From Paenibacillus sp. L3-i20 (lineage in GTDB: Bacteria; Bacillota; Bacilli; Paenibacillales; Paenibacillaceae), in the NCBI RefSeq assembly GCF_022180385.2, contig NZ_BQME02000002.1, positions 1,860,001 through 1,924,000 of the forward strand: DNA of 64,000 bases, written 5' to 3'. A program made the translations under genes and the position numbers. Below, in pieces: positions 12,477 through 29,209 of this stretch. Every line of letters begins with the position of its first letter. The first letter of the stretch is position 1. The notes beneath the pieces were generated by a model. The model did no database searches. It saw only the letters and a program-made list of their open reading frames with translations, and was not told where the DNA came from.

Positions 12477-14093
12477 TTACGAAGTAAGGCGGGTCTGCTC
12501 CCCAATCATCTCCCAATCCGAAGATGTATAGCTCCCCATAAACCATAAAGAAACGCCTTTAAGTTCATAAAACTTGGCGAGCCATATCTTCTTGGCAATA
12601 CTTTGTGTATCCTCATAAAATAGTTCATGGCTACCGCGTTCATCAGTGAATGTAGCTTTCTTTAAATAATATGGGATTGCCCAAGTGCTTTTCACATCAG
12701 GCATCGCCAGACGTTTTTCTACTTCTGCGATAGCTGGATTAAGTGCAGAAGCCGTTACGCCATCTTTTGTAATCCATTGATTAGCCTGTTTCGAAATGCC
12801 CAGCACCAGTTTCTCTTTTGGTATAAATTGAAGTGCCGTTACAACAGCATCGTTCACTAATGGTAATGGCGCTGAAGGCAGCTTGTCTTTGTCATATGTG
12901 TAGTCATGAGCCATTAGAATAACCGTATCAGCAAGTTTGCCAATTGCCTTCAAATCATAACCTTTGTAATAATCAATTGGTGGAACAGCGACAGACAATG
13001 TATGAGTGCTTAACTGACCTTTCAAATCTTGAAGAAACTGGACATAATCAGCAGCACTACCCGCTTCCTTTAAGCCTTCGAAATCAATACTTACTCCTGT
13101 AAATGAATAAGTGGGATCATTTAAAACTACTAGTAAGGACTCAATAAAAGCCTTCTGAGCTACCTTATCCTTAAGGAAATCTTTCAAATTACTATTGTTA
13201 TAGAAGACCATAAGTTCCTTAGTAACTTCAGCAGAATCAGCTGCTGAGAGAGCCTCCTCATAACCTTTAGGAATACGATTAACCGTCTTGCCAGTGTTCA
13301 ATGTTGCACTTCCAGCACTACTATACTCCAAATGTGACCATCCAAATATAACATTGGATAATAGATTCATCTGATTAATCGCTGAGAAGGATTGAATGGC
13401 ATAATAACCGGTGAAATCTATCTTTTGCCCCGAAACTCGCTTATCAATTAATCGATAGATTACGGCTGCCGCTTGTTTACGAATCAGCGGTTCATCAGGT
13501 TTAAAGCCAGATGAATCCCCTTCCATAATTCCTCGATTAGCTGCGTAATATATGTAAGGTTGCATAGCGGTATCTATTGCTGAATGATCCTTAAATGAGC
13601 GAACATCCCGCTCCTTCTTCCATTTTGTAGACAACCATTGCTTACGTATATCTTCCTTTTCCAAATCTAGCAACGATTTGCCTACCAGCATTGCAACCTC
13701 TTGTCTTGTAATTGTCTGCGTAGGGTGCAATAAACCGTTTTTATCTAGCAAACTATCAAGCCACTTTCGTTCAGAAGCTACTGAAATAAACGCCGCAGAC
13801 CAACGATCCTTTGCTACATCCTGTGGAACACTGCCTACTAGCGAATCCGATTCCAACTGACCTGCCATTACAAGCAGCTTTATAAAAGCTTCCCTGGAAA
13901 GGTCGTTATTTGGTCGATAGGTTCGATCCTCGTAGCCATTTATAATACCTAATGTAGATAATGAATAAATAGGGTCTCGTGAATAATCATGCTCCTCATC
14001 CTTAAAGGGGAGCAGCTGAACATTATAAGCGAAAGCACTATTCGTAAATACCATAACAAATAAGACAACTAATAAACTTACCCTCTTTAACAT
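12477..14093 (-). CDS. Secreted SLH-domain protein with glycoside hydrolase 18-type domain
   Basis: 538 residues. Signal peptide 1-22 (hydrophobic run then SAFA). Three S-layer-homology repeats span about 30-215 (LGIINGYEDRTYRPNNDLSREAF; ERKWLDSLL..TITRQEVAMLVG; ANRGIMEGDSSGFKPDEPLIRKQAAAVIY), which would anchor it to secondary cell-wall polymer. Residues ~220-538 form a GH18-type TIM barrel: FGWSHLEYSS, FTGVSIDFEGL (the DxE acid position), LSVAVPP, ILMAHDYTYD and a final GVSLWFMGS. Such proteins act on peptidoglycan or chitin-like glycans. RBS AAAGGGG lies before the ATG. Monocistronic. Confidence 0.88.
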   Translation of the reverse strand: MLKRVSLLVVLFVMVFTNSAFAYNVQLLPFKDEEHDYSRDPIYSLSTLGIINGYEDRTYRPNNDLSREAFIKLLVMAGQLESDSLVGSVPQDVAKDRWSAAFISVASERKWLDSLLDKNGLLHPTQTITRQEVAMLVGKSLLDLEKEDIRKQWLSTKWKKERDVRSFKDHSAIDTAMQPYIYYAANRGIMEGDSSGFKPDEPLIRKQAAAVIYRLIDKRVSGQKIDFTGYYAIQSFSAINQMNLLSNVIFGWSHLEYSSAGSATLNTGKTVNRIPKGYEEALSAADSAEVTKELMVFYNNSNLKDFLKDKVAQKAFIESLLVVLNDPTYSFTGVSIDFEGLKEAGSAADYVQFLQDLKGQLSTHTLSVAVPPIDYYKGYDLKAIGKLADTVILMAHDYTYDKDKLPSAPLPLVNDAVVTALQFIPKEKLVLGISKQANQWITKDGVTASALNPAIAEVEKRLAMPDVKSTWAIPYYLKKATFTDERGSHELFYEDTQSIAKKIWLAKFYELKGVSLWFMGSYTSSDWEMIGEQTRLTS

Positions 14094-14812: not shown

Positions 14813-16393
14813 TTAGCTATGCACCCCCCCTGCCAATCGTGGGCAATCACGATAAGGTCCAACCGGAATCTGTATCAGACTAGTTATTCCTTGTGAAGTC
14901 ATCTCGTAAATCTCATCACACACTCTAGCATCAAATCCGAGGAGCGGATGCCCCCCGATCCCGATAGCGGATGCCGCCAATAGTAATCGCTGCACGAGCA
15001 TCCCCGCTTCCATCTGTTGAATGCGATATCCCCTAAATCCCAATGCCGTTGTGAGATGATCCCGATCCCCTGCTACATGAAAGCATAGCGGAACTTGATA
15101 GAGATTCACATTGTCGGAAGGCATCCCCTCTTGCAACCTGAGCCGATGATCTCCTTGACGTACCCGACGCAACATATGGGCAGTATTGTCATAATGGTAC
15201 GCGCCATCAGGTATACCATCAACGTTATGCAAACAGACGTACAGAGAAACGCGAGAAACATGTTTTTCTTGTGCGCCATCCAAATCATTCCGATACCGAA
15301 AAGAAGCCGTTGCCTCCTGCAACAGGACGGCCAGCTGCTCTTGGCCTATCTTGCCCATAACAAAATCACCATCCGGTGAAAAACGCTTTCGGCTTACTGT
15401 CGCTAGATCATACGACAATCTCTTTACACAGGGCAGAACTACGGCTTGAACCTCTCGGTGAACGATTCTCCCCTCCTCCATTTGCAGGGAAGGCCGAAAC
15501 GATTCCAATAGAGATGATTCGTTCATCTTGATGAGCATCGGAAACGCCTTGACCGTACGAGACCTGATGTAATGATCATGGTGAACAGTTGCCAACTCCC
15601 GGCACAATTCGGCGGCAGAACTTCCCTCCTCAACCTCATTTCTATTGACTAACCAAGGGTTTGCAAGCTCCACTGACAGCGGAATCACCGCATATACACT
15701 CTCCTCTTGTTCCGATAATCCGAGGAGATGATTCATGGCCCGATCAAGGAACTGGAAATGCACGCCCGACGTAAAGCCGAACCGCTTTGCCACTTCCAAA
15801 AGCTGACCAATCAACACACCTGCATCCAGTCCTTGCAGACGGTAAGAAAAGTTATTGTATTTAAAAAAGTTTTTCCAAAACATTGTCGATACGAACACAG
15901 CGCCAAAACAAGCCGACACGTCACAGCGATTGCCTAGAGACTGCACTAAATAGGAATCGAAGTTGCCTTCGCGCAGCAACACCAAACGGTGGTGTGCCAC
16001 ATCATAATGATAGACTCCCTCAGGTAAATCTTCTAGCTTCAGATACACGTATATTTCGCTCGGGTACAATGCTCCCCCCGACGGAACAAACCGCCGGTAC
16101 AACTGCAACAGGCCATCATTTTGCATCATTAAATTGGAGACAGGAACGGACTGGGACAATCCAGTGAGCCCGTATATGTACCAGAGAAAATGACCCATTC
16201 GATGAAGGTCTGGCTTTTCTGATGCTTCGCCATCTACGAGCGTTAACGGCACTGCCGGAGATAACGGAACGACTGGCAAACCGCGGTAGAGCTTATACGC
16301 AAGCGGCCCATCCTCCCAATCCACTACCGCCTCCGGTGGTTTGGTCTTCTCAATGTCATAATGCAAGTTGTGCAGAAATGCTTCAAGACTCAT
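14813..16393 (-). CDS. SagB-type thiazoline/oxazoline dehydrogenase (TOMM biosynthesis), duplicated domain
   Basis: 526 residues from the ATG at 16393 (GGAGGGAG 7 nt upstream; the open frame reaches further but has no RBS). Two nitroreductase-fold halves are seen. The first has the SagB signature VPSGGALYPSEIYVYL (104-119), EGVYHYDVAHHRLVLL and GLDAGVLIGQLLEVAKRFG. The second repeats the plan (SRVSLYVCLHNVDGIPDGAYHYDNTAHML, RIQQMEAGMLVQRLLLAASAIGIGGHPLLGFD). SagB proteins use FMN to oxidise azoline rings, made by the YcaO cyclodehydratase, to aromatic thiazoles or oxazoles. The second half keeps the shape but lacks the PSGGALYP motif. Last gene of the TOMM operon. Confidence 0.88.
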   Translation of the reverse strand: MSLEAFLHNLHYDIEKTKPPEAVVDWEDGPLAYKLYRGLPVVPLSPAVPLTLVDGEASEKPDLHRMGHFLWYIYGLTGLSQSVPVSNLMMQNDGLLQLYRRFVPSGGALYPSEIYVYLKLEDLPEGVYHYDVAHHRLVLLREGNFDSYLVQSLGNRCDVSACFGAVFVSTMFWKNFFKYNNFSYRLQGLDAGVLIGQLLEVAKRFGFTSGVHFQFLDRAMNHLLGLSEQEESVYAVIPLSVELANPWLVNRNEVEEGSSAAELCRELATVHHDHYIRSRTVKAFPMLIKMNESSLLESFRPSLQMEEGRIVHREVQAVVLPCVKRLSYDLATVSRKRFSPDGDFVMGKIGQEQLAVLLQEATASFRYRNDLDGAQEKHVSRVSLYVCLHNVDGIPDGAYHYDNTAHMLRRVRQGDHRLRLQEGMPSDNVNLYQVPLCFHVAGDRDHLTTALGFRGYRIQQMEAGMLVQRLLLAASAIGIGGHPLLGFDARVCDEIYEMTSQGITSLIQIPVGPYRDCPRLAGGVHS

Positions 16394-16459
16394 GCTTCTC
16401 CCTCCTGACAGGAACAAGGGTGAACTAATACACTTCACGTTTCATTTCCCCTGTAAAAC

Positions 16460-18403
16460 CTATGGAAACGGATGCGGGTATGGATTGAGAAGTTCTGGGC
16501 TTAGCGGCTGCTTAACGTACCCAAGTTCCACTGGCACCCTAAATACCCGCTCCAATCCTGCTACGCGGGTAAAGTGATGTCCAAATGTCATCGGCAACAT
16601 CCCTGGGATCAGCACTTTCACGCAATGAAGTCCATTTCTAGCGATTTCCGGCGCTGTCAGATCCACCACAACCACATCGAGATTCAATTGTCGGAACGTC
16701 TTTAGAATATCCTTCAGATCATCCGTTAAATCAGTTCGCCTTGCCGCCTGTTTAAATTCCTCTTCAAACTTTCGCAATACGCGATTGTCATCCAGTAAAA
16801 ATTGCAGGCGCTCCTGTGCTTGCGGTAAACCGTACAGCAAAGAATGATCCTCCATCTGCTGCACTTGGGAGGAATCGCGGAGCATCCGAACATAATCCTC
16901 CCGGTTTGACTCGAATTTCTTATCAAGATTCAGAACCATTCCGGCCAATTCGTGTACCGCACCTTTCATCGCCCGCAGAGGATCAGGATGAGCTCCGGCC
17001 GCACAGATGAGATTGACTCCTGTTTGTTTCCTGTTTTTCGCTACCGCCCAAACACTCGGAATCCCATGCTCCATAGTCGAGTTAAAGAAATGTACATCAA
17101 ACCCCGCCACCGCTCGCATTCGATCGAGCATCAATCGCAATTCTTGGTCGTTAGCAGAGTAAGGATCAAGGCGTGGGAGAGGCAGCTGCGCATACCAAGT
17201 CATCAGAAATGAATCCCGCTCTACCACCTCCAAAATCCCGTAAAAAATAGCTTCTTCCAAACTTCCACCTAACGCGCATCCATTAGAAGACTCGAACACG
17301 AATCCATGTCCGTGGCCCATGCTGTAGTAGGCGGTCTGTTCAGGAACCAAAAGTGGACGCTCTTGCAAAAATGAATAACCCCATACCCATGGGATAGGTT
17401 GCTCGGGATCAAACGTTCTGAACGGAAATCCCGGCAGAGCGTAATGTTCCTTCGTGTGCATCCCTAGCTTGACAGGGTCGAGTGCTTGATCTTTCAATTT
17501 GCGAAAACTGTCATAAACTACCGTCTGTTTGCCTCGAGGTGCTAGGCCGCAGTACCTCTCCAATCCCTCCATAATGGCGGTCAACTCACTGGTCGCATAG
17601 GAATGAGTTCGACCTGCCGTTCCCACGTCCTCAGATAATAACGGTAGATTCACACTGGCATCGGCAAATGGCGAATCTAGGTCAACCATTCTTCCATTCA
17701 AAAAGCCTGTCCGGTAATCCAGATAGTCTTTGGTCAGTACTTTATTCAGATCATCTATCGTACGGCAGCGATAACTATCTGAACTAGTCTTCGGACTTGG
17801 TTGCAGCGAAATATTAGCTGCTGTCGATGAATCTTCCGGCAATTGACTGCAAACCGAACATAACGGGTCAGGAAGATAGAAGTGACGTGTACTCTCCAGT
17901 GATTTCAGATTGATCAAACATACATTACCATCCGAATGAACCTGTTTTCCTTGTAACATTCTCTGTGCCTCAGCCACCAGAAGGTGAGCTACCTGTAAAA
18001 GTCCAGTACGCGACGCCCAAGCATCACTCTGAATTCTTTCGCGATCCAACAGTCTTTGCTGCAGCGCTCGCATCTCCCTACGCTCGCGTCCCGCCATGAG
18101 GAGCCGCATATCTGCACACTGTGAGCAACCCCGTATACCCGGAGTAACTAAAGGTCCAATTACTCCCTCGCCAAATGAAACGAAGCCGCGCAACCAAGGG
18201 ATGCCGACTGATTGCAGCAGCTCTTCTGCCTTTTGATGAACGTCAGGATACCAAGCATCGTGCAGTACCAGCACCAAACTAACCTCTTTCAGAGCCCCTG
18301 CCTCGAAATCGGTTTGATGTACAATCTCGAATTGATCTGAAAGTTGCCCGTATACGTGGTCCGCGAGCACCCCCTCTCCCACAATCATAACGATAGCGCT
18401 CAC
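16460..18403 (-). CDS. Fused TOMM leader-binding (ThiF-like) and YcaO cyclodehydratase protein
   Basis: 647 residues. Residues 1-190 are the precursor-leader-binding/E1-like part with two zinc CxxC pairs (C93-x2-C96 and C182-x2-C185). Residues ~215-640 form the YcaO domain: the ATP-binding SELTAIMEGLERY (E273, E279, E282), SNGCALGGSLEEAIFYGILEVVERD and FVFESSN. The C-terminus NPYPHPFP matches the PxPxP-type tail important for catalysis in TOMM YcaO enzymes. It converts Cys/Ser/Thr of the precursor to azolines using ATP; the substrate here should be the cysteines of the peptide at 20.6 kb. It overlaps the preceding gene by 4 nt (ATGA). Confidence 0.92.
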   Translation of the reverse strand: MSAIVMIVGEGVLADHVYGQLSDQFEIVHQTDFEAGALKEVSLVLVLHDAWYPDVHQKAEELLQSVGIPWLRGFVSFGEGVIGPLVTPGIRGCSQCADMRLLMAGRERREMRALQQRLLDRERIQSDAWASRTGLLQVAHLLVAEAQRMLQGKQVHSDGNVCLINLKSLESTRHFYLPDPLCSVCSQLPEDSSTAANISLQPSPKTSSDSYRCRTIDDLNKVLTKDYLDYRTGFLNGRMVDLDSPFADASVNLPLLSEDVGTAGRTHSYATSELTAIMEGLERYCGLAPRGKQTVVYDSFRKLKDQALDPVKLGMHTKEHYALPGFPFRTFDPEQPIPWVWGYSFLQERPLLVPEQTAYYSMGHGHGFVFESSNGCALGGSLEEAIFYGILEVVERDSFLMTWYAQLPLPRLDPYSANDQELRLMLDRMRAVAGFDVHFFNSTMEHGIPSVWAVAKNRKQTGVNLICAAGAHPDPLRAMKGAVHELAGMVLNLDKKFESNREDYVRMLRDSSQVQQMEDHSLLYGLPQAQERLQFLLDDNRVLRKFEEEFKQAARRTDLTDDLKDILKTFRQLNLDVVVVDLTAPEIARNGLHCVKVLIPGMLPMTFGHHFTRVAGLERVFRVPVELGYVKQPLSPELLNPYPHPFP

Positions 18404-20361
18404 CGGAACCCCTCCTCTCGCAACATCACACCAAATACCCCTTCAATCTCCTCTTTCAGAAACGGTTCTACAGCAAGATCGAAGACCAAAAGCTTCTTAC
18501 CGTTCTGCTCTAAAACCTGTAAGGCGGATTTTAGAAGATCCCCTCTTGCTGTCTCTTCACTTAATGGAATATCAAGGCTTTGCGGTAATTGTCTGGACAA
18601 ACGAACGGATGAAACCTCTACTACTTGCGGTGTGAGACTTTCCTTTCGGTTTTGTGCCTCTAATAAAGCCTGTTGCAAAGCATCCCGCAGCGCTAGGGTC
18701 ACATTCAAACCTACACCACCATACCAGCGATCATTCGTACCGACCCACATCACAGGGAATCCAGATACTTTCTCTCCCATTCCAATAATGGGTGCTTCAC
18801 TCATCGTCGTCAGACTTTGCAAATAAAACTGGCAGTGTCTATCTTCTATTGCAGACAACTGTACTCGAAAGACAGCAGGAAATGGATATGCCTTTTGCTT
18901 TCCCAGCATCTCGGCCAAACACCTCTGCAACCCTCGGCCGATGCCTTCCTCAACCGTTTCTCCCGCTCCGACACCGATAAATTCCTCAGGTTCTATTCTA
19001 TTGCCTTTTGTTACCCGATCGGATGAAAGTGGCGAAACGAGTAAGCTAGCCATTCGCGATACATATGCTTCTATCCCTACTAGCCCTGCTTCCCGCCTAG
19101 CTTCTTTATGTGTCAAAGCATTACAAATAATTTCTGGCAGCAACTTTGCCGGCCCATCAGTTAACGGATCGACTGCCTGAACGCGACACTGAGAAAGAGG
19201 TAGCTGATTCAAGTTCCCTTCTTCCCAACTATGGAAAATGCCCGATACTGTTGATGTCAATCGACTGAAATACGGAAGCAATCCGTCCTCACTTTGTTTT
19301 GAGCCCCGTTCAAGCTGAGTAGCGAACTCGTGACCCAGAGCAGTTGCAGTACGTCCAGTCACAAGCGGATGGGGCATGAACGAATGCCATTTCCCTTCCA
19401 ATGTCTCCAGATTAAGCAGGAATAATTGATCGCTCCGCTCCGAATCGTTCACTCCTGTAATCTTTTTAAATAATTCAAACACGACGATATTCGCTAACAT
19501 CGCTCCCGCAGTCGAAGAAAAGGTATGCTGCTCGGAATCTTTACTAATCGCAGATTCGTGTATGCGACGCCTAGCTGACTCCCAGCATCCCTCGAAGTCC
19601 GAGTGTACGAACTGACCCACCAAACCAACCTGCCGCAGACAGACAGCGGGAAGAAACATCTTCTTCTGTTCCTGACAAGTCGCATGAAGCAGCTCCAGTT
19701 CCTCACTATCTCCGTCCTGCGACACATACAATATTGAATCAAATGGCTTCACAGCTTCCCACCAACGACTAGCCCCCTCCTGCTGCAGCGTAAATTCCTC
19801 TACCGCTATCTCAGGATCTGTTTGACGAGCATGTGTTGCAAGTTCCAGCATCCGCTTGCGATCCGTCGTTTCAGAGTCCGTGACTAGTACACAAAACGTA
19901 GGTAATCCAGAATCAAGTAGTGCAGAAAAGGCCGAGATCAGGAATGGGCCTGAGCCAACTACTAATACTTTGGCATTACGATAGGACTGAAACCGGTACG
20001 CACCAGAATTGCCGAAATGGTTCAGAAACTCAATTTGTGAAGCATACTTTTGGGCTATTTGTTCCGACAGTTGATGTGGAGTGTCTTGGCTCACATCTTG
20101 TACAAATCCATTACGATGCAGCATTTCTGCAATTTTATATACCTGGTTCCGATGTTCGTCCGATAATCCGTCTGTCACAACTTCCAGACTATGCTCCCCG
20201 TTGAATATCGGTATCAGTTTTTCAATCCATTTATCGATCATTACTCCTTCCATGCGGAATGAGCTTACATTATTACGAAAATACACACTGCCGTTTGTGT
20301 TAGGGAGAAAAAATGTATCTCTTTTCACCTTCAGTCGCATCGAAGCGTTTACACTTGTCAT
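18400..20361 (-). CDS. Putative thiazole-containing bacteriocin maturation protein
   Basis: 653 residues, matching the maturation protein that accompanies heterocycloanthracin-type clusters. N-terminal ~100 residues form a winged-helix-like peptide-binding region (LKVKRDTFFLPNTNGSVYFRNN..IDKWIEKLIPIFNGEHSLEVV), followed by a ThiF/E1-like Rossmann segment NAKVLVVGSGPFLISAFSAL (130-149). The C-terminal half has a degenerate YcaO-like repeat (GVGAGETVEEGIGRGLQRCLAEM). It is thought to work with the cyclodehydratase; the exact reaction is not established. RBS GGGAGGAGG precedes the ATG. First biosynthetic gene after the precursor and its hairpin. Confidence 0.87.
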   Translation of the reverse strand: MTSVNASMRLKVKRDTFFLPNTNGSVYFRNNVSSFRMEGVMIDKWIEKLIPIFNGEHSLEVVTDGLSDEHRNQVYKIAEMLHRNGFVQDVSQDTPHQLSEQIAQKYASQIEFLNHFGNSGAYRFQSYRNAKVLVVGSGPFLISAFSALLDSGLPTFCVLVTDSETTDRKRMLELATHARQTDPEIAVEEFTLQQEGASRWWEAVKPFDSILYVSQDGDSEELELLHATCQEQKKMFLPAVCLRQVGLVGQFVHSDFEGCWESARRRIHESAISKDSEQHTFSSTAGAMLANIVVFELFKKITGVNDSERSDQLFLLNLETLEGKWHSFMPHPLVTGRTATALGHEFATQLERGSKQSEDGLLPYFSRLTSTVSGIFHSWEEGNLNQLPLSQCRVQAVDPLTDGPAKLLPEIICNALTHKEARREAGLVGIEAYVSRMASLLVSPLSSDRVTKGNRIEPEEFIGVGAGETVEEGIGRGLQRCLAEMLGKQKAYPFPAVFRVQLSAIEDRHCQFYLQSLTTMSEAPIIGMGEKVSGFPVMWVGTNDRWYGGVGLNVTLALRDALQQALLEAQNRKESLTPQVVEVSSVRLSRQLPQSLDIPLSEETARGDLLKSALQVLEQNGKKLLVFDLAVEPFLKEEIEGVFGVMLREEGFR

Positions 20362-20457
20362 TCGATTCCTCCTCCCGATCTACCTACTCTTCACAAGTAA
20401 TCCTATGTACCGCTATTTGTCCCTCATGTCTTATTCTTTAAGGAAAATAAGCATGAA

Positions 20458-20483
20458 AAAGCCCCTGCGCCTGCAGGAGCTTT
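20458..20483 (-). terminator. Hairpin between precursor gene and TOMM biosynthetic genes
   Basis: On the minus strand AAAGC-CCTGC pairs with GCAGG-GCTTT around AGGC with one bulge-like mismatch, followed by TT. It lies 79 nt past the precursor stop and 97 nt before the maturation gene start. Partial termination here would give much more precursor than enzyme mRNA, as in other bacteriocin operons (inference). Confidence 0.75.
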
Positions 20484-20561
20484 CCTCTTCCTATTAAGTA
20501 GCCTCTATTTACGTTTATAACTTACAACGGACATGATTGCTGTCTTATAGCGACTGCTAAC

Positions 20562-20864
20562 TCACCGTCCTCCATGTCCTCCACCACCATGCCCACCTCC
20601 ACCATGTCCTCCACCATGACCTCCTCCGTGGCAGTTATGGCAGTTATGACAATTGTGGCAATTATGACAGTTTTGACAGTTTTGACAGTTGTGATGGCAA
20701 CGATGGCAGTTTTGACAGTTGAAACAGTTGAAGCAATTGATGCAATTGAAACAAACGAAGCATAATCGACCATCGTACTGACTTTGAGCGTTAAAAGGTG
20801 TAACCTCGCTTGCGTGAAATTCAGAAACATTCAAATTGTTTAAATCTTTTTTAAAATCGTTCAT
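20562..20864 (-). CDS. Heterocycloanthracin/sonorensin-type TOMM precursor peptide
   Basis: 100 residues from ATG at 20864 (RBS ACGGAGG 9 nt upstream). Leader: MNDFKKDLNNLNVSEF, then HASEVTPFNAQSQYDG, matching the leader of the Bacillus heterocycloanthracin/sonorensin family. Core starts at RLCFVCFNC and carries 15 Cys, all three residues apart except one four-residue step (HRC HHNC); 12 of the 15 are in an NC dipeptide. The core has no Ser or Thr. The last 22 residues are Gly/His only (blocks of HGGG and HGGGG) ending in Arg. Cysteine thiazolation by the neighbouring YcaO/SagB enzymes is expected. An open frame of 41 codons runs upstream in phase, but lacks an RBS. Confidence 0.9.
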   Translation of the reverse strand: MNDFKKDLNNLNVSEFHASEVTPFNAQSQYDGRLCFVCFNCINCFNCFNCQNCHRCHHNCQNCQNCHNCHNCHNCHNCHGGGHGGGHGGGGHGGGGHGGR

Positions 20865-21814: not shown

Positions 21815-22966
21815 TTAAACCTCTTTATCCGTCTTTTTCTTATATAAATATGGTAATATTGAAATTACCCCAAGGACAGCTAAACATGATCCAATCCACA
21901 ACGGAGTTACAAAACCATATCCTTTACTGATTCCAAGACCACCTAGTGACGAACCAATAACAATACCCAGTGTAATAAAAGAACTATGAACGGTATTGAT
22001 CATTGTTCCATTACTAGCTGTTTTCATTACTCTCGCAACCATAGCCGGATTCAATGCAACACCAGTTAAACCAATAAAAATCGTAGAAATAACCGCAATG
22101 TGTTTATTCTCTGCACCTAAAGCAAATAAAGACAATGCCACTATTAATATGATCAATCCGCTCACCAATATTTTCATTGTATATTTATCAGCAAACTTGC
22201 CAATTACTATATTCCCAACTACCGTCGCACTACCATAGAGAGCAAGTAAATATGGAATACTTGCACTTGAAAAGCCTGTGACATTAGTGAAAATAGGAGT
22301 GAAATAACTAAATGCTGCAAACGTACCACCAATAATAAACAAACTTGTTGTGTACGCTGCCCAGAGATGTCTGTTCTTAAAATGCATAAGTTCGTCTTTC
22401 CAGTTAAGTTGCTCTTTATTTGATAATGATGGTAGCAACCATTGGATCATAATCCCTGATACTAGCACAAGAACAGAAACAGCCCCAAAACTAATACGCC
22501 AGCCAAAATATTGCGAAATAACGGTTGTTATAGGTAAACCTAATACAGTTGCGAACATTAAACCTGCAAGTACAATTGATGCAGCTTTTCCCCTTGAATC
22601 AGAGTGAACCAATGTTGCAGAAAAGGAAATCGCGACTCCAAAAGCTGAAGCTGAAGCAATACCAGTTATGATACGTGAAATCATCATAATATCATAGTTC
22701 CAAGCAATAGCTCCGAGAGATTGACCAATTAAAAATACAAACATTAAAAACAATAATGCTTGTTTGCTGCGCATTCGTAAGAGAATTGCAGTTAAAATGG
22801 GGCCTCCTACCACCATTGCTCCTGCATAGGCTGTAATTAAATACCCAATAGATGATACAGAAACCTGGAATGCAAGAGCAAGTTCGTTCATCATACCTGC
22901 AACCATAAATTCTGATGTAGTCATACAAAAGATTGCTAATGCTAATAAATAAATAATCGATGGCAT
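21815..22966 (-). CDS. MFS drug-efflux transporter (DHA1, AraJ/CmlA-like)
   Basis: 383 residues, 12 predicted membrane spans. The N-terminus LALAIFCMTTSEFMVAGMMNELALAFQVSVSSIGYLITAYAGAMVVGGP is typical of DHA1 sugar/drug efflux carriers (T-S-E-F motif in helix 1). Helix 4-5 region SRIITGIASASAFGVAISF and VLAGLMFATVLGLPITTVISQYFGWR is motif C-like. It exports a drug or metabolite with proton antiport. RBS GGGGTG precedes the ATG. The TetR regulator gene is 62 nt upstream on the same strand; a repeated operator-like sequence lies before both genes. Confidence 0.9.
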   Translation of the reverse strand: MPSIIYLLALAIFCMTTSEFMVAGMMNELALAFQVSVSSIGYLITAYAGAMVVGGPILTAILLRMRSKQALLFLMFVFLIGQSLGAIAWNYDIMMISRIITGIASASAFGVAISFSATLVHSDSRGKAASIVLAGLMFATVLGLPITTVISQYFGWRISFGAVSVLVLVSGIMIQWLLPSLSNKEQLNWKDELMHFKNRHLWAAYTTSLFIIGGTFAAFSYFTPIFTNVTGFSSASIPYLLALYGSATVVGNIVIGKFADKYTMKILVSGLIILIVALSLFALGAENKHIAVISTIFIGLTGVALNPAMVARVMKTASNGTMINTVHSSFITLGIVIGSSLGGLGISKGYGFVTPLWIGSCLAVLGVISILPYLYKKKTDKEV

Positions 22967-23028: not shown

Positions 23029-23625
23029 CTAAGCGCCAAAAATAGACTCCATTGTTCCTTTGATAACCTGTTCAGCTAACTTCTGATTTTGCATCGATAC
23101 ATTAAGGACACGGAATCCGTAATAACTGCTTAAAAGCAGACTAGCCAATTCTTCAGCTGATTGATTCTTTGAAATTTCACCTGTTTGTAATCCTTCCTCT
23201 ATTACTGTTTCAATAGCTTGTTTAAGAAGCTCAACATGCTTTGAGAAAATTTCTTGTACCATTAAATCGTTTTTAGCACGTTCTACACTGGCATTAATCA
23301 ATAAACATCCTTTTTGATCAATATTCTCAAAGTCTTCTTTCAATGCCCATTCAAAAAAATTACTTAATCGTTCTTTAACTGGAATTGGAGTATCTAACAA
23401 TTTCTTTTGTTCCCTAATCCCCATTTCATGGTAGCGTTCTAATACTTGTTTATACAGTTCATGTTTACTTCCGAAAGTATTGTATAAACTTCCTTTTCCA
23501 AGTCCTGTATCACTGCATAAATCTTGTGTAGAACACCCCTCATATCCTCTTATCCAAAATGTTTTCATTGCAACATCTACAATTGAGGAATAATTAAACT
23601 CTCTCGGTCTGCCACGATTATTCAA
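23029..23625 (-). CDS. TetR/AcrR-family regulator of the adjacent MFS pump
   Basis: 198 residues. The N-terminal HTH is RGRPREFNYSSIVDVAMKTFWIRGYEGCSTQDLCSDTGLGKGSLYNTFGSKHELYKQVLE. The C-terminal ligand domain (CLLINASVERAKNDLMVQEIFSKHVELLKQAIETVIEEGLQTGEI) matches the YxaF/LmrA-like group that controls multidrug pumps. It likely represses itself and the MFS gene through the TTTTGTACCAAC repeats at both gene fronts. Start codon ATG with RBS AGGAGAAT. Confidence 0.9.
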   Translation of the reverse strand: MNNRGRPREFNYSSIVDVAMKTFWIRGYEGCSTQDLCSDTGLGKGSLYNTFGSKHELYKQVLERYHEMGIREQKKLLDTPIPVKERLSNFFEWALKEDFENIDQKGCLLINASVERAKNDLMVQEIFSKHVELLKQAIETVIEEGLQTGEISKNQSAEELASLLLSSYYGFRVLNVSMQNQKLAEQVIKGTMESIFGA

Positions 23626-25525: not shown

Positions 25526-28500
25526 TTACTTACTCTGCAGCACCATCGGCTTCGGGAAGTATCCTATATTGACTGCATAGTTAATCATGTTGTTCATAAA
25601 CTGCCCATTAGGCTCCGCACAACGAATATTGGACTGCTGCAAAAGCTCACTTGTAGACTCACATCCGTAGCGGAACGGAGAATCCTTTGCACCGTCACCT
25701 TCCAACTGAGCTATTGCCAACTTCACACCTTCCGGATCTTTGGAATATTGATCGTTAAACAACCACTTCGTATATTCCTCTGGAGCAAGAGTCTCGATCT
25801 CATAACCATATGCTTGGATCATTTCGATCCATTCGGAGTAGGCTACTGATACTGGATTGCAAATATGGAAGATGCGTCCTGACGTGTCCGAACGAAGCGC
25901 AAGGTGTACGATCGATTGACCTGCATAATTGATTGGCGTAAAGTCGACCTCCCAATTCGCTTCTGGCGCTTTCCCTAACAGCAGCATCGATTTGATCATT
26001 CGATAGAAGGAGTTGCTGTCGATATTTTTTTGGAAAAGACCTGTTTCAGGATGGCATGACAAGTTACCCGCTCTATATATATTGATAGCAAGACCTTGCT
26101 CTGATGCACGGACAAGAACCTTCTCAGCCTCCAATTTGCTGTTCGTATACATGTTGTCTAAACGAAGATCTGAAGTAAGCTTCTGCCCCTCAACTACAGT
26201 ATCCCACTGTCCGCTAAAAGCAAGATCTTCTGGTATGCCAAGCGTCGAAATATGATGGAATCTTATCTGCTTCTTACTTTGCTGAGCAATCTCGATCAAC
26301 GAGAGCGTCCCCGCGATGTTCGTTCTGGCAAACTGCTCTTCATCTCCGAAATGTCTAACGTCCGCTGCACTATGAATAATCGCATCCAACTCATTGATAA
26401 GCATATGTCGTTCTTGATCACTTAGCCCAAGACCTGGTTGCTCCAAGTCTCCTTCAAGTGCAATAACACGCCCATCCATCCCATCTACGAAGCTTGCGCC
26501 GAAGAAAAATTCCATGCTGCTTCGTATACGCGCAATACCTGGCTCCAATCCTGAACGAACGAGACAATAGACGACAGCCTCGCTCTGAACTAGCAACTCA
26601 CGCAGCAAATAGCTGCCTAAATAGCCGGTCGATCCCGTCAATAGCACCGCACTTGGTGTTGCAAAGCTCTGCTCTTTCGTACCTGCAACTTGAAGATTAG
26701 GATGCTCATGCAGAGAAATAACCGGACCTGTGTAACGTGGTAAACCGGTCTTATGATGCTCTTCTAATGCCAGTTCCTCAATACGGATCGCGATTGCTTC
26801 AACTGTGCGATATTGGAAGAAATCATTAATTTTCAAACTCGGGTAATACGGCTTCAATATAACGAGAACTTGAATGATTGCAAGTGAGTCTCCGCCAATC
26901 GTGAAGAAATCATCACATCTCGACACTTGATCAAGCTTGAGCGCTTCTTGCCACGAGCGGGCTACATTCCATTCAACATCTGTTACCGGCTCTTCATAGC
27001 TCTCTTCCGTAGACTGCCCTGCACGATGCTCATAATTGATTAATCCCTTCCTATCAATTTTGCCCGTAGGTGATGTAGGCATAACATCCAACTGCACGAT
27101 CCACTTCGGAACGAAATAGGATGGAAGCTTGTCCCCCAGCATTCGTTTGATCACCGCTCCTGATATGCCCTCTCCTTCCTTAGAAGTAAAATAGCCTACA
27201 AGCATATTTTGACCGTCGACATCCTTTTTGCAAATGACGGCTACGTTCTGTACGTTAGCAATTTTGGCAAAGCTATCTTCGATTTCTCCAATTTCAATCC
27301 GATGTCCACGTATTTTAATCTGTGAATCCCGTCGTCCGACATAATCAATTGTTCCATCAGGAAGCAGCTTGCATATATCTCCGGACTTATATATTTGTCC
27401 TTCTCCGAATGGATTAGGAATGAATGCCTCTGCCGTTTTTTCTGGCTGCTTCAGATAACCCTTAGCAAGTCCAACTGTTTCAATATATAACTCACCATGC
27501 ACGTTAACTGGGCACAATTGATTTTCTTCATTAACAATATACACTTTATAATTATGAATAGGCTTGCCGATCGGAACATTCGTCATATTGTCCGAGATAT
27601 AGCCCGTTATTTTATACGTTGTTGTGCACACTGTACATTCGGTTGGACCATACACATTGACAATATCAATGCCGTCCTGGAATTTACGCTGGAATGCCCT
27701 TACCTGCTCGCCGTACAACAATTCACCTGCAACTGTAATAAGCTTGACCTTTGCTAATTTGAGGTAACCCTCGCTAGATAGATAAGTAGATAGCTGATTA
27801 AAGAAAACGGTAGGCAAAATCGTAATAATTGTTGTTCCCGTTCTTTCGATAGCGGATGCAAATTCCTCCACCGATACTCTCTCATCGTTCGAAAGTAAAT
27901 AAAGATGCGCTCCATAGAATAAAGCTCCAATTGTGTCCCAAACGGAAGCATCAAAGCTATAAGTAGCAAACTGCGTTAGAACATCACCAGGTTTGATCTG
28001 GCAGTCCGTCCTAACGGTTTCTCCAAGATTAACAACCCCTTCATGTGCAATCAGCGCACCCTTTGGCCTGCCCGTTGATCCGGAAGTATAAATCACATAG
28101 GCCAAATCTTCCGACCTTACGCTAACCCCTACATTTTCATCACCCTGATAGGTGTCTGTTACTCCGGAATCAATTGCTATAATTTCCTTTACTGAATGTA
28201 CTTGATCGCAAAGCTGCTCTGCCGCACTTATATATTGTGACTTAGTCAATATAAATGCCGATTCCGTATCAGAAATAATATAACGGTTACGATCTTCAGG
28301 ATGATCCGGGTCAACAGGAACGTACACACCACCAGCCTTCAATATACCAAGCAAACTAACGATCAGGTCAAGGCTGCGTTCCATAAAGATAGTAACAAAT
28401 TCGCCTTTTTCAAGACCCTTACTAGTGAGCATTTTTGCCGTTTGGTTAGCCTTCTCATTAAGTTCGCGGTATGTAAGCTGACCATAAATAGAAGATAAAG

Positions 28501-29209
28501 CGATTTGCTCTGGGAACTTGGCTGCCGCCTCCTCGAACATCCCATGAATCGTCTGATCTTTAGCATAGTCCCATTCGGTATTGTTTAATTGCTCGTAAAT
28601 TTTAATATCTTCATCCGTCAAAATATTTACTGCAGCAATGAGGTTACTCGGATCAACAAGAGCTGAATCAAGCAACTTCATATAGTAGGACATAAAACGA
28701 TGCACAGAACTTTCCTCAAGAACTGACGTGTCGTAATCCACCTTTATCCGCCACTTACCGTTTTCCTCTAGCATCTGCCAATTAAGCAGCTCCCTCTCGG
28801 GCTTAATTGTATGCCCGATTGAAAAGCGAGTGTCGAAATCAAGATCGGCATTAACTCCGACTGCCAAGCAGACCATCATATTGTTCACAATACTTTGAAA
28901 CGTTCGATTGTCTTCCTCAAAATGAAGGGACACAGGTATTTCACTATGTTCATTCAAGGCCAACCCTACCATAATGTCGTGCTCTCCTGATAAGCGATAA
29001 AGCAATGAAAAATAGACAGCTCCAAGCAGAGCTGCCTCTTTCTCTCTATTAAATAGAGCTTTATGCATGAGCTCATTTACCCGTTCGCTTAACGACAGCT
29101 CAGCTGATGTGAAAGAAAAAGTACGATTGTGACGCATACGATCAAGTGGTATGAACAACAGGGAATTCTCTTGCGCAAATTGATTAGTTCCAAGCATGTT
29201 TTCAGTCAT
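25526..29209 (-). CDS. One-module NRPS: partial condensation, adenylation, carrier, terminal thioester reductase
   Basis: 1227 residues. 1-200: C-terminal half of a condensation domain (LLYRLSGEHDIMVGLALN) with no HHxxxDG motif. 220-725: adenylation domain with A3 YTSGSTGRPKG (374), A5 VYGPTE (519), A8 GRRDSQIKIRGHRIEIGEIE, A10 PTGKIDRKGL. Hand-aligned specificity residues are D420 A421 W424 T463 T492 A494 V519 V527 C528 K, sharing 7 of 10 with the phenylalanine code DAWTIAAICK. 745-815: carrier with GGDS (Ser775). 853-1227: R domain with LLTGSTGYLGSYLLREL and the YxxxK-like MYTNSKLEAEK, for NAD(P)H release as aldehyde or alcohol. The upstream chemoreceptor is transcribed in the same direction; no partner NRPS or phosphopantetheinyl transferase is seen. 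Confidence 0.9.
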   Translation of the reverse strand: MTENMLGTNQFAQENSLLFIPLDRMRHNRTFSFTSAELSLSERVNELMHKALFNREKEAALLGAVYFSLLYRLSGEHDIMVGLALNEHSEIPVSLHFEEDNRTFQSIVNNMMVCLAVGVNADLDFDTRFSIGHTIKPERELLNWQMLEENGKWRIKVDYDTSVLEESSVHRFMSYYMKLLDSALVDPSNLIAAVNILTDEDIKIYEQLNNTEWDYAKDQTIHGMFEEAAAKFPEQIALSSIYGQLTYRELNEKANQTAKMLTSKGLEKGEFVTIFMERSLDLIVSLLGILKAGGVYVPVDPDHPEDRNRYIISDTESAFILTKSQYISAAEQLCDQVHSVKEIIAIDSGVTDTYQGDENVGVSVRSEDLAYVIYTSGSTGRPKGALIAHEGVVNLGETVRTDCQIKPGDVLTQFATYSFDASVWDTIGALFYGAHLYLLSNDERVSVEEFASAIERTGTTIITILPTVFFNQLSTYLSSEGYLKLAKVKLITVAGELLYGEQVRAFQRKFQDGIDIVNVYGPTECTVCTTTYKITGYISDNMTNVPIGKPIHNYKVYIVNEENQLCPVNVHGELYIETVGLAKGYLKQPEKTAEAFIPNPFGEGQIYKSGDICKLLPDGTIDYVGRRDSQIKIRGHRIEIGEIEDSFAKIANVQNVAVICKKDVDGQNMLVGYFTSKEGEGISGAVIKRMLGDKLPSYFVPKWIVQLDVMPTSPTGKIDRKGLINYEHRAGQSTEESYEEPVTDVEWNVARSWQEALKLDQVSRCDDFFTIGGDSLAIIQVLVILKPYYPSLKINDFFQYRTVEAIAIRIEELALEEHHKTGLPRYTGPVISLHEHPNLQVAGTKEQSFATPSAVLLTGSTGYLGSYLLRELLVQSEAVVYCLVRSGLEPGIARIRSSMEFFFGASFVDGMDGRVIALEGDLEQPGLGLSDQERHMLINELDAIIHSAADVRHFGDEEQFARTNIAGTLSLIEIAQQSKKQIRFHHISTLGIPEDLAFSGQWDTVVEGQKLTSDLRLDNMYTNSKLEAEKVLVRASEQGLAINIYRAGNLSCHPETGLFQKNIDSNSFYRMIKSMLLLGKAPEANWEVDFTPINYAGQSIVHLALRSDTSGRIFHICNPVSVAYSEWIEMIQAYGYEIETLAPEEYTKWLFNDQYSKDPEGVKLAIAQLEGDGAKDSPFRYGCESTSELLQQSNIRCAEPNGQFMNNMINYAVNIGYFPKPMVLQSK

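Follow-up and report, generated by a model that had tools for sequence, protein, structure and literature searches.

A probable heterocycloanthracin-type azole peptide cluster with an Asn-Cys repeat precursor in Paenibacillus sp. L3-i20

What does a compact four-gene cluster with a Cys-rich precursor peptide make in Paenibacillus sp. L3-i20, and how unusual is its precursor? The cluster occupies positions 14,813 to 20,864 of the 64,000-nucleotide stretch analysed here (the window; contig NZ_BQME02000002.1, positions 1,860,001 to 1,924,000), which belongs to a 5.3 Mb genome in two contigs. The initial annotation had described four contiguous same-strand genes of a thiazole/oxazole-modified microcin (TOMM) of the heterocycloanthracin (HCA)/sonorensin type. 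Open reading frames and profile matches confirmed these genes where it had placed them, all on the minus strand and in the order precursor, F protein, fused cyclodehydratase (C-D) and SagB dehydrogenase. The genes, their domains and their conservation were observed directly. We consider it very probable that the cluster is an HCA-type linear azole peptide (TOMM/LAP) locus, for which we infer rings, export, activity and target. Its features are:

20562..20864 (stop included), minus strand: precursor peptide, 100 amino acids, leader and Cys-rich core (open reading frame, TIGR03601 match below cut-off, shared leader)
20631..20762, minus strand: core, residues 35-78, with 15 Cys, mostly in (F/I/Q/H)-Asn-Cys units, hydrophobic first and His-rich last
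20565..20630, minus strand: Gly/His tail of the precursor, residues 79-100, without Cys (translation)
20456..20485, minus strand: terminator-like hairpin in the precursor/F gap, 13 pairs then a T-run, possible attenuator
18400..20361, minus strand: ocin-ThiF-like F protein, 653 amino acids, predicted leader binding and scaffold (TIGR03693)
20095..20340, minus strand: leader-recognition region (RRE) of F, residues 8-89 (match to PbtF chain 8t19_A)
16460..18403, minus strand: fused C-D cyclodehydratase, 647 amino acids, short C part and YcaO domain (TIGR03604, TIGR03882, PF02624, LynD/MusD/TruD)
16463..16486, minus strand: C-terminal NPYPHPFP (PxPxP) of the YcaO enzyme (translation)
14813..16393, minus strand: SagB-family dehydrogenase, 526 amino acids, two nitroreductase-like domains (TIGR03605; 3eo7 in two stretches)

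The precursor ATG at 20864 is preceded by GGAGG. From the precursor stop to the F start there are 200 bp, the F and C-D genes overlap by 4 bp, and, taking the ATG at 16393 behind GGAGGGAG as the SagB start, C-D and SagB are spaced by 66 bp.

The HCA/sonorensin type proposed in the initial annotation is supported by profile matches to all parts of the cluster, by an RRE like that of PbtF, by alignment to LynD, MusD and TruD, and by the PxPxP motif. The F protein scored 736.8 bits against TIGR03693 (NCBIfam cut-off 561.9), and its residues 8-89 matched the RRE of PbtF with an E-value of 7.7e-5, the sole PDB sequence match at E 0.01. TIGR03604 (423.6 bits, cut-off 219.25) and TIGR03882 (152.1 bits, cut-off 36.9) both matched C-D, in one protein. 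The YcaO domain of C-D matched PF02624 and could be aligned to LynD, MusD and TruD, with query residue 271 pairing with LynD residue 415, which leaves 270 preceding residues compared to 414 in LynD. The C part aligned weakly to LynD (i-Evalue 5.9), and the missing residues were placed by length and by Cox 2015. This indicates a fused C-D with a shortened N-terminal C part, an arrangement that serves as a criterion of HCA-type clusters.

The C-D protein ends in NPYPHPFP, which bears out the PxPxP-like tail reported for the YcaO enzyme. A PxPxP C-terminus is a mark of azoline-forming YcaO proteins, and it was present in 98 of the 98 tails examined, from 101 loci. SagB scored 211.7 bits against TIGR03605 (cut-off 78.4), in two stretches. 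The 'duplicated' SagB of the initial annotation does have two domains, but this is the usual state: a full-length two-domain SagB in one piece was found at 87 of the 101 loci, split at 3 (L032, L051 and L139) and not found at 11, among which L119, L144 and L145 comprise less than 10 kb of DNA each and possibly represent ends of DNA.

The closest relative found is the locus of Paenibacillus sp. GSMTC-2017 (G366, equivalent to L034 and L084), which has the same four genes, the same core and a Gly/His tail, with a precursor 88% identical to that of the window. Indels in the repeats and a small difference in tail length distinguish the two precursors, resembling the tripeptide indels of Haft 2009 (PMC2674419). 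Between them, 24 of 30 codon changes were silent, and codon position 3 accounted for 28 of the 33 altered bases. Because the changes are mostly synonymous or at the third position, the precursor appears to be a genuine gene whose reading frame is under selection. An alignment of the leaders of 19 peptides showed a conserved leader; the core behind it fits the Cys-Xaa-Xaa repeat described for HCA precursors (Haft 2009, PMC2674419). The core contains 15 Cys, 13 of the 14 spacings between them being 3, and Asn stands directly before 12 of the 15. Ser and Thr are absent from the first Cys (residue 35) onward, the four of the precursor being at residues 14, 19, 22 and 28. The possibility that the same genome encodes another precursor or cyclodehydratase was considered and rejected, as the genome, 97.7% complete, gave one match each to the precursor model and to TIGR03604.

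In related systems, the F protein is described as binding the leader by its RRE and supplying the YcaO enzyme and the dehydrogenase with the core (passages of PMC4603692, PMC7470986 and PMC10634744). By analogy, the precursor leader would bind the RRE at the N-terminus of F, and F would present the core to the fused C-D, itself short of the leader-binding part. The YcaO domain would cyclodehydrate Cys with ATP, with a loss of 18 Da per Cys, and SagB would oxidise the thiazolines to thiazoles, with a loss of 20 Da in all per Cys. With 15 Cys in the core and neither Ser nor Thr, up to 15 thiazoles could form, the majority of them preceded by Asn. The calculated monoisotopic mass of the full precursor, Met included, is 10895.4 Da unmodified, 10625.2 Da with 15 thiazolines and 10595.0 Da with 15 thiazoles. 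Release and export of the peptide would fall to a protease and an exporter whose genes lie elsewhere. On the inferred rings and export, the most likely product would be a secreted peptide carrying as many as 15 thiazoles, with one hydrophobic and one His-rich end. It is probably antibacterial, and it may act on membranes as reported for sonorensin, whose authors predict its membership of the family and report raised membrane permeability (PMC4544038). For HCA, a shortened C part has been described and azoline formation reported in vitro (Cox 2015, PMC4603692), and in micrococcin six Cys are converted into six thiazoles by a related trio of proteins (PMC10634744).

Several points weigh against this interpretation. 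The TIGR03601 search advised at the outset did match the precursor (26.1 bits, E 9.9e-6), but the curated NCBIfam cut-off of 35 was missed, as it was by the GSMTC-2017 precursor (29.1), and a Pfam scan assigned no family to the precursor. The precursor is therefore outside the curated TIGR03601 membership, and it is the cluster that is filed as HCA-type. In a TIGR03601 scan of 10 relatives, all 10 matched at E<=1 and 6 exceeded the cut-off; of four Paenibacillus Asn-Cys relatives, two were above it (48.2 and 46.1) and two below, GSMTC-2017 and L032 (32.9). Sonorensin gives no proof of rings, because its paper (PMC4544038) nowhere uses the word 'thiazole' in the main text. Sonorensin and one HCA are termed 'characterized' in passages on the family; those on HCA report in vitro ring formation, and no solved natural structure was found in the literature consulted. 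The sequence itself gives no indication of the target.

A further point is that no recurring export, leader-removal or immunity gene was found beside the cluster among ATG-initiated frames of at least 70 or 80 amino acids, mostly within ~6 kb either side of F, a comparison that small genes may escape. The commonest non-cluster neighbour family occurred at 5 of 21 loci, and in a second comparison at 15 of 81, with scattered positions; the longest member of the latter family looks like an ABC exporter by eye. Genes elsewhere in the genome would accordingly have to provide export, leader removal and immunity.

How much of this is new? The gene set, leader and repeat period are those of a family frequent in Paenibacillaceae. 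The HCA clusters of the Bacillus cereus group share with the window the F protein, the shortened fused C-D and SagB (Haft 2009, PMC2674419; Cox 2015, PMC4603692), as well as a TIGR03601-type leader and Cys-Xaa-Xaa repeats (PMC2674419). In contrast, their precursor lies far from the enzymes, their core is Cys-Gly-Gly rather than Xaa-Asn-Cys, and they are described with extra modification genes (PMC4603692), none of which was seen at the window cluster. The Bacillus licheniformis precursor has the same leader family and adjoins its maturation genes, as in the window, but its core is largely Cys-Trp-Ser (Haft 2009, PMC2674419). Sonorensin of Bacillus sonorensis is assigned to the same leader family, a likeness that concerns the leader. 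The micrococcin proteins TclI, TclJ and TclN are alike in the ocin-ThiF RRE scaffold, the fused E1-YcaO enzyme and the dehydrogenase (PMC10634744). The initial annotation could match the core to no described member. Same-core homologues do exist in public genomes; in the main literature, supplements aside, no close homologue with an Asn-Cys core was found described among the matches listed, and the matches listed for the repeat strings as text came from chemistry and other fields.

The distribution of the repeat was analysed in two sets of loci, which overlap (L084 is G366, L102 is G347, and others) and are not independent. The family set was drawn from 394 genomes of the taxonomic family, of which 96 had any match to TIGR03693. 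The locus analysis covers the 58 over the cut-off, the own genome included, with the 38 under it set aside. A leader-bearing open reading frame stood just upstream of F on the same strand at 58 of 58 loci. Its Cys-rich core was intact in 57, with a precursor-F gap of 115-411 bp; L051, whose core loses the Cys frame, was left out of core counts, and L032 was trimmed to the leader. Asn preceded most Cys in 9 of the 57 precursors, including the window and GSMTC-2017. In these 9 rows, 103 of 134 Cys were preceded by Asn, compared to 73 of 753 in the other 48, and the 9 formed one side of a branch with support 100/100, spanning two genera, in the tree of 58 F proteins. A Cys-free tail as long as that of the window precursor (residues 79-100) was found, among the other 8, in GSMTC-2017 alone.

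The named set comprised the best 80 of 209 relative-encoding stretches from a scan of GTDB contigs, plus the window. A precursor lay within 2.8 kb upstream of F at 71 of the 80 loci, the other 9 having none by the rule used; one row, L111, is a misread frame, and several Neobacillus/Bacillus leaders are incomplete. When a row was given the Asn-Cys label if at least half of its Cys had an Asn in front, 25 of the 81 qualified, window included. Seventeen of the other 24 belonged to the same Paenibacillus clade, and seven lay outside it, in Neobacillus, Bacillus, Metabacillus and Aneurinibacillus. An Asn-Cys core confined to one clade was thus rejected, as was a core unique to the own genome. On the named-set tree, a quick tree with SH-aLRT support only, the label required 3 changes, of which well-supported branches force 2. 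Because Asn-Cys rows also occur outside the Paenibacillus clade, the repeat has probably originated, or been retained, on more than one occasion. The 'unusual precursor' is accordingly weakly supported, the repeat being present in 8 other rows of the 57 and in other genera.

Cores with other repeats were observed in the same searches. L040/L111 (Cohnella luojiensis), L120 (Paenibacillus alkalitolerans) and L129 are HCA-like clusters with other Cys/His-rich repeats, of the type Cys-His-Ala in L040/L111 and in L120, whose core has 26 Cys and 50 His. On a Paenibacillus larvae plasmid (L031, NZ_CP019653.1), an HCA-type precursor frame from ~5557 is absent from the PLSDB gene table, where a hypothetical protein in another frame overlies it; the adjoining F gene matched over residues 1-289 only, with an IS256 gene behind.

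The order of residues along the core was hydrophobic early and basic late in 56 of 56 family-set rows (54 with at most 10 of 1000 shuffles as high) and in 61 of 70 named-set rows (45 with at most 5 of 500), both counts being inflated by relatedness and the latter leaving out the 9 loci without precursor and L120, which has no hydrophobic residue and is very His-rich. The order as a universal feature was rejected, since 9 of the 70 named rows, including Anoxybacillus, Parageobacillus and Thermolongibacillus, were reversed. The basic residues of the 9 Asn-Cys cores were 81 His and 16 Arg, compared to 228 Arg and 16 His in 47 others. The His-rich L040, without RLC, was left out of these order and His/Arg counts and speaks against 'Arg elsewhere'; His-rich cores also occur outside the Asn-Cys Paenibacillus clade in the named set. 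It is conceivable, though we hold the idea tentatively and think it rather unlikely, that the Asn-Cys class is a block poly-thiazole peptide in which His replaces Arg at the cationic end, giving a charge switched by pH or metal.

The same His residues could serve another function. The modified peptide might be metal-binding, or signalling or otherwise physiological, rather than a bacteriocin, with His and thiazole nitrogens binding copper, zinc or nickel through ligands in the His-Asn-Cys half and the Gly/His tail. His as the main basic residue of Asn-Cys cores, where Arg prevails elsewhere, is consistent with this, as is the failure to find an immunity or export gene recurring beside the cluster. 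However, in most other members of the family set the same genes go with Arg rather than His, and sonorensin is reported to be antibacterial (PMC4544038). We regard this alternative as unlikely.

Could the cluster instead be degenerate or silent? SagB is split in L032, L051 and L139, the L051 core loses its Cys frame, and in seven relatives only F and C-D genes remain, in divergent orientation. In the window, in contrast, none of the four frames is broken and most changes in the precursor are synonymous, which makes a degenerate or silent cluster very improbable here. A thiopeptide or thioamide pathway sharing F and YcaO proteins can hardly be at work: the pyridine of a thiopeptide needs Ser/Thr in the core, whereas the window core has neither from residue 35, its YcaO carries PxPxP, and no lanthipeptide-type dehydratase or TfuA was found in 13 neighbour proteins (Pfam; 3 also NCBIfam). 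The micrococcin machinery differs from the window cluster in continuing to a thiopeptide through Ser/Thr dehydration and ring closure. The Ser/Thr requirement agrees with passages of PMC4603692, in which thiopeptide clusters are also described as using ocin-ThiF-like F proteins and fused cyclodehydratases, the feature that recalls such a pathway. An HCA-type cluster remains our preferred reading.

The seven Paenibacillus loci with divergent F and fused C-D (L094, L098, L099, L121, L122, L123 and L135) had no SagB gene or leader-bearing precursor that we could find. Their F proteins group together (SH-aLRT 100) as a single clade nested in the Asn-Cys clade, and four of the F matches start at residues 80-97, without the RRE part. 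P. phytorum has both a divergent F/C-D pair and a full cluster (L082). Do these loci reflect decay or a derived pathway?

The hairpin at 20456-20485 between precursor and F had a folding z of -2.2, in a region with 12 terminator-like sites compared to 6.2 expected. A strict scan found such a hairpin in 14 of 57 precursor-F gaps, the own included, compared to 0.35% of mononucleotide shuffles. Since it is found in 14 of 57 gaps, it is not generally conserved, and the data hint weakly at a conserved attenuator.

Other genes of the window flank the cluster, all on the minus strand. Upstream of the precursor, 21815-22966 encodes a major facilitator superfamily (MFS) exporter like Cmx/CmrA (292 bits, below the cut-off of 400), accompanied by a TetR regulator at 23029-23625; no relative of this exporter was found beside the cluster in 20 loci compared. 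A single-module nonribosomal peptide synthetase at 25526-29209 has adenylation, carrier and terminal reductase domains and a short condensation-domain match only, its best NCBIfam match being aureusimine synthetase AusA at 588 of 2500 bits, far below the cut-off. A family 18 glycosyl hydrolase that also has S-layer homology domains is encoded at 12477-14093.

HCA clusters are numerous in sequenced genomes, and this compact one, with the precursor and three putative ring-forming genes together and a core without Ser/Thr, would be a simple test object. With 15 Cys, modification would show as a clear mass ladder, and the 12 Cys that follow Asn would probe the tolerance of the YcaO enzyme. The exchange of His for Arg yields a testable prediction on pH or metals. 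If it is true, pH or metal would switch the charge and, through it, membrane action or metal binding; the Asn-Cys peptides, with almost every thiazole preceded by Asn, would then be a pH-gated variant of a bacteriocin type already known.

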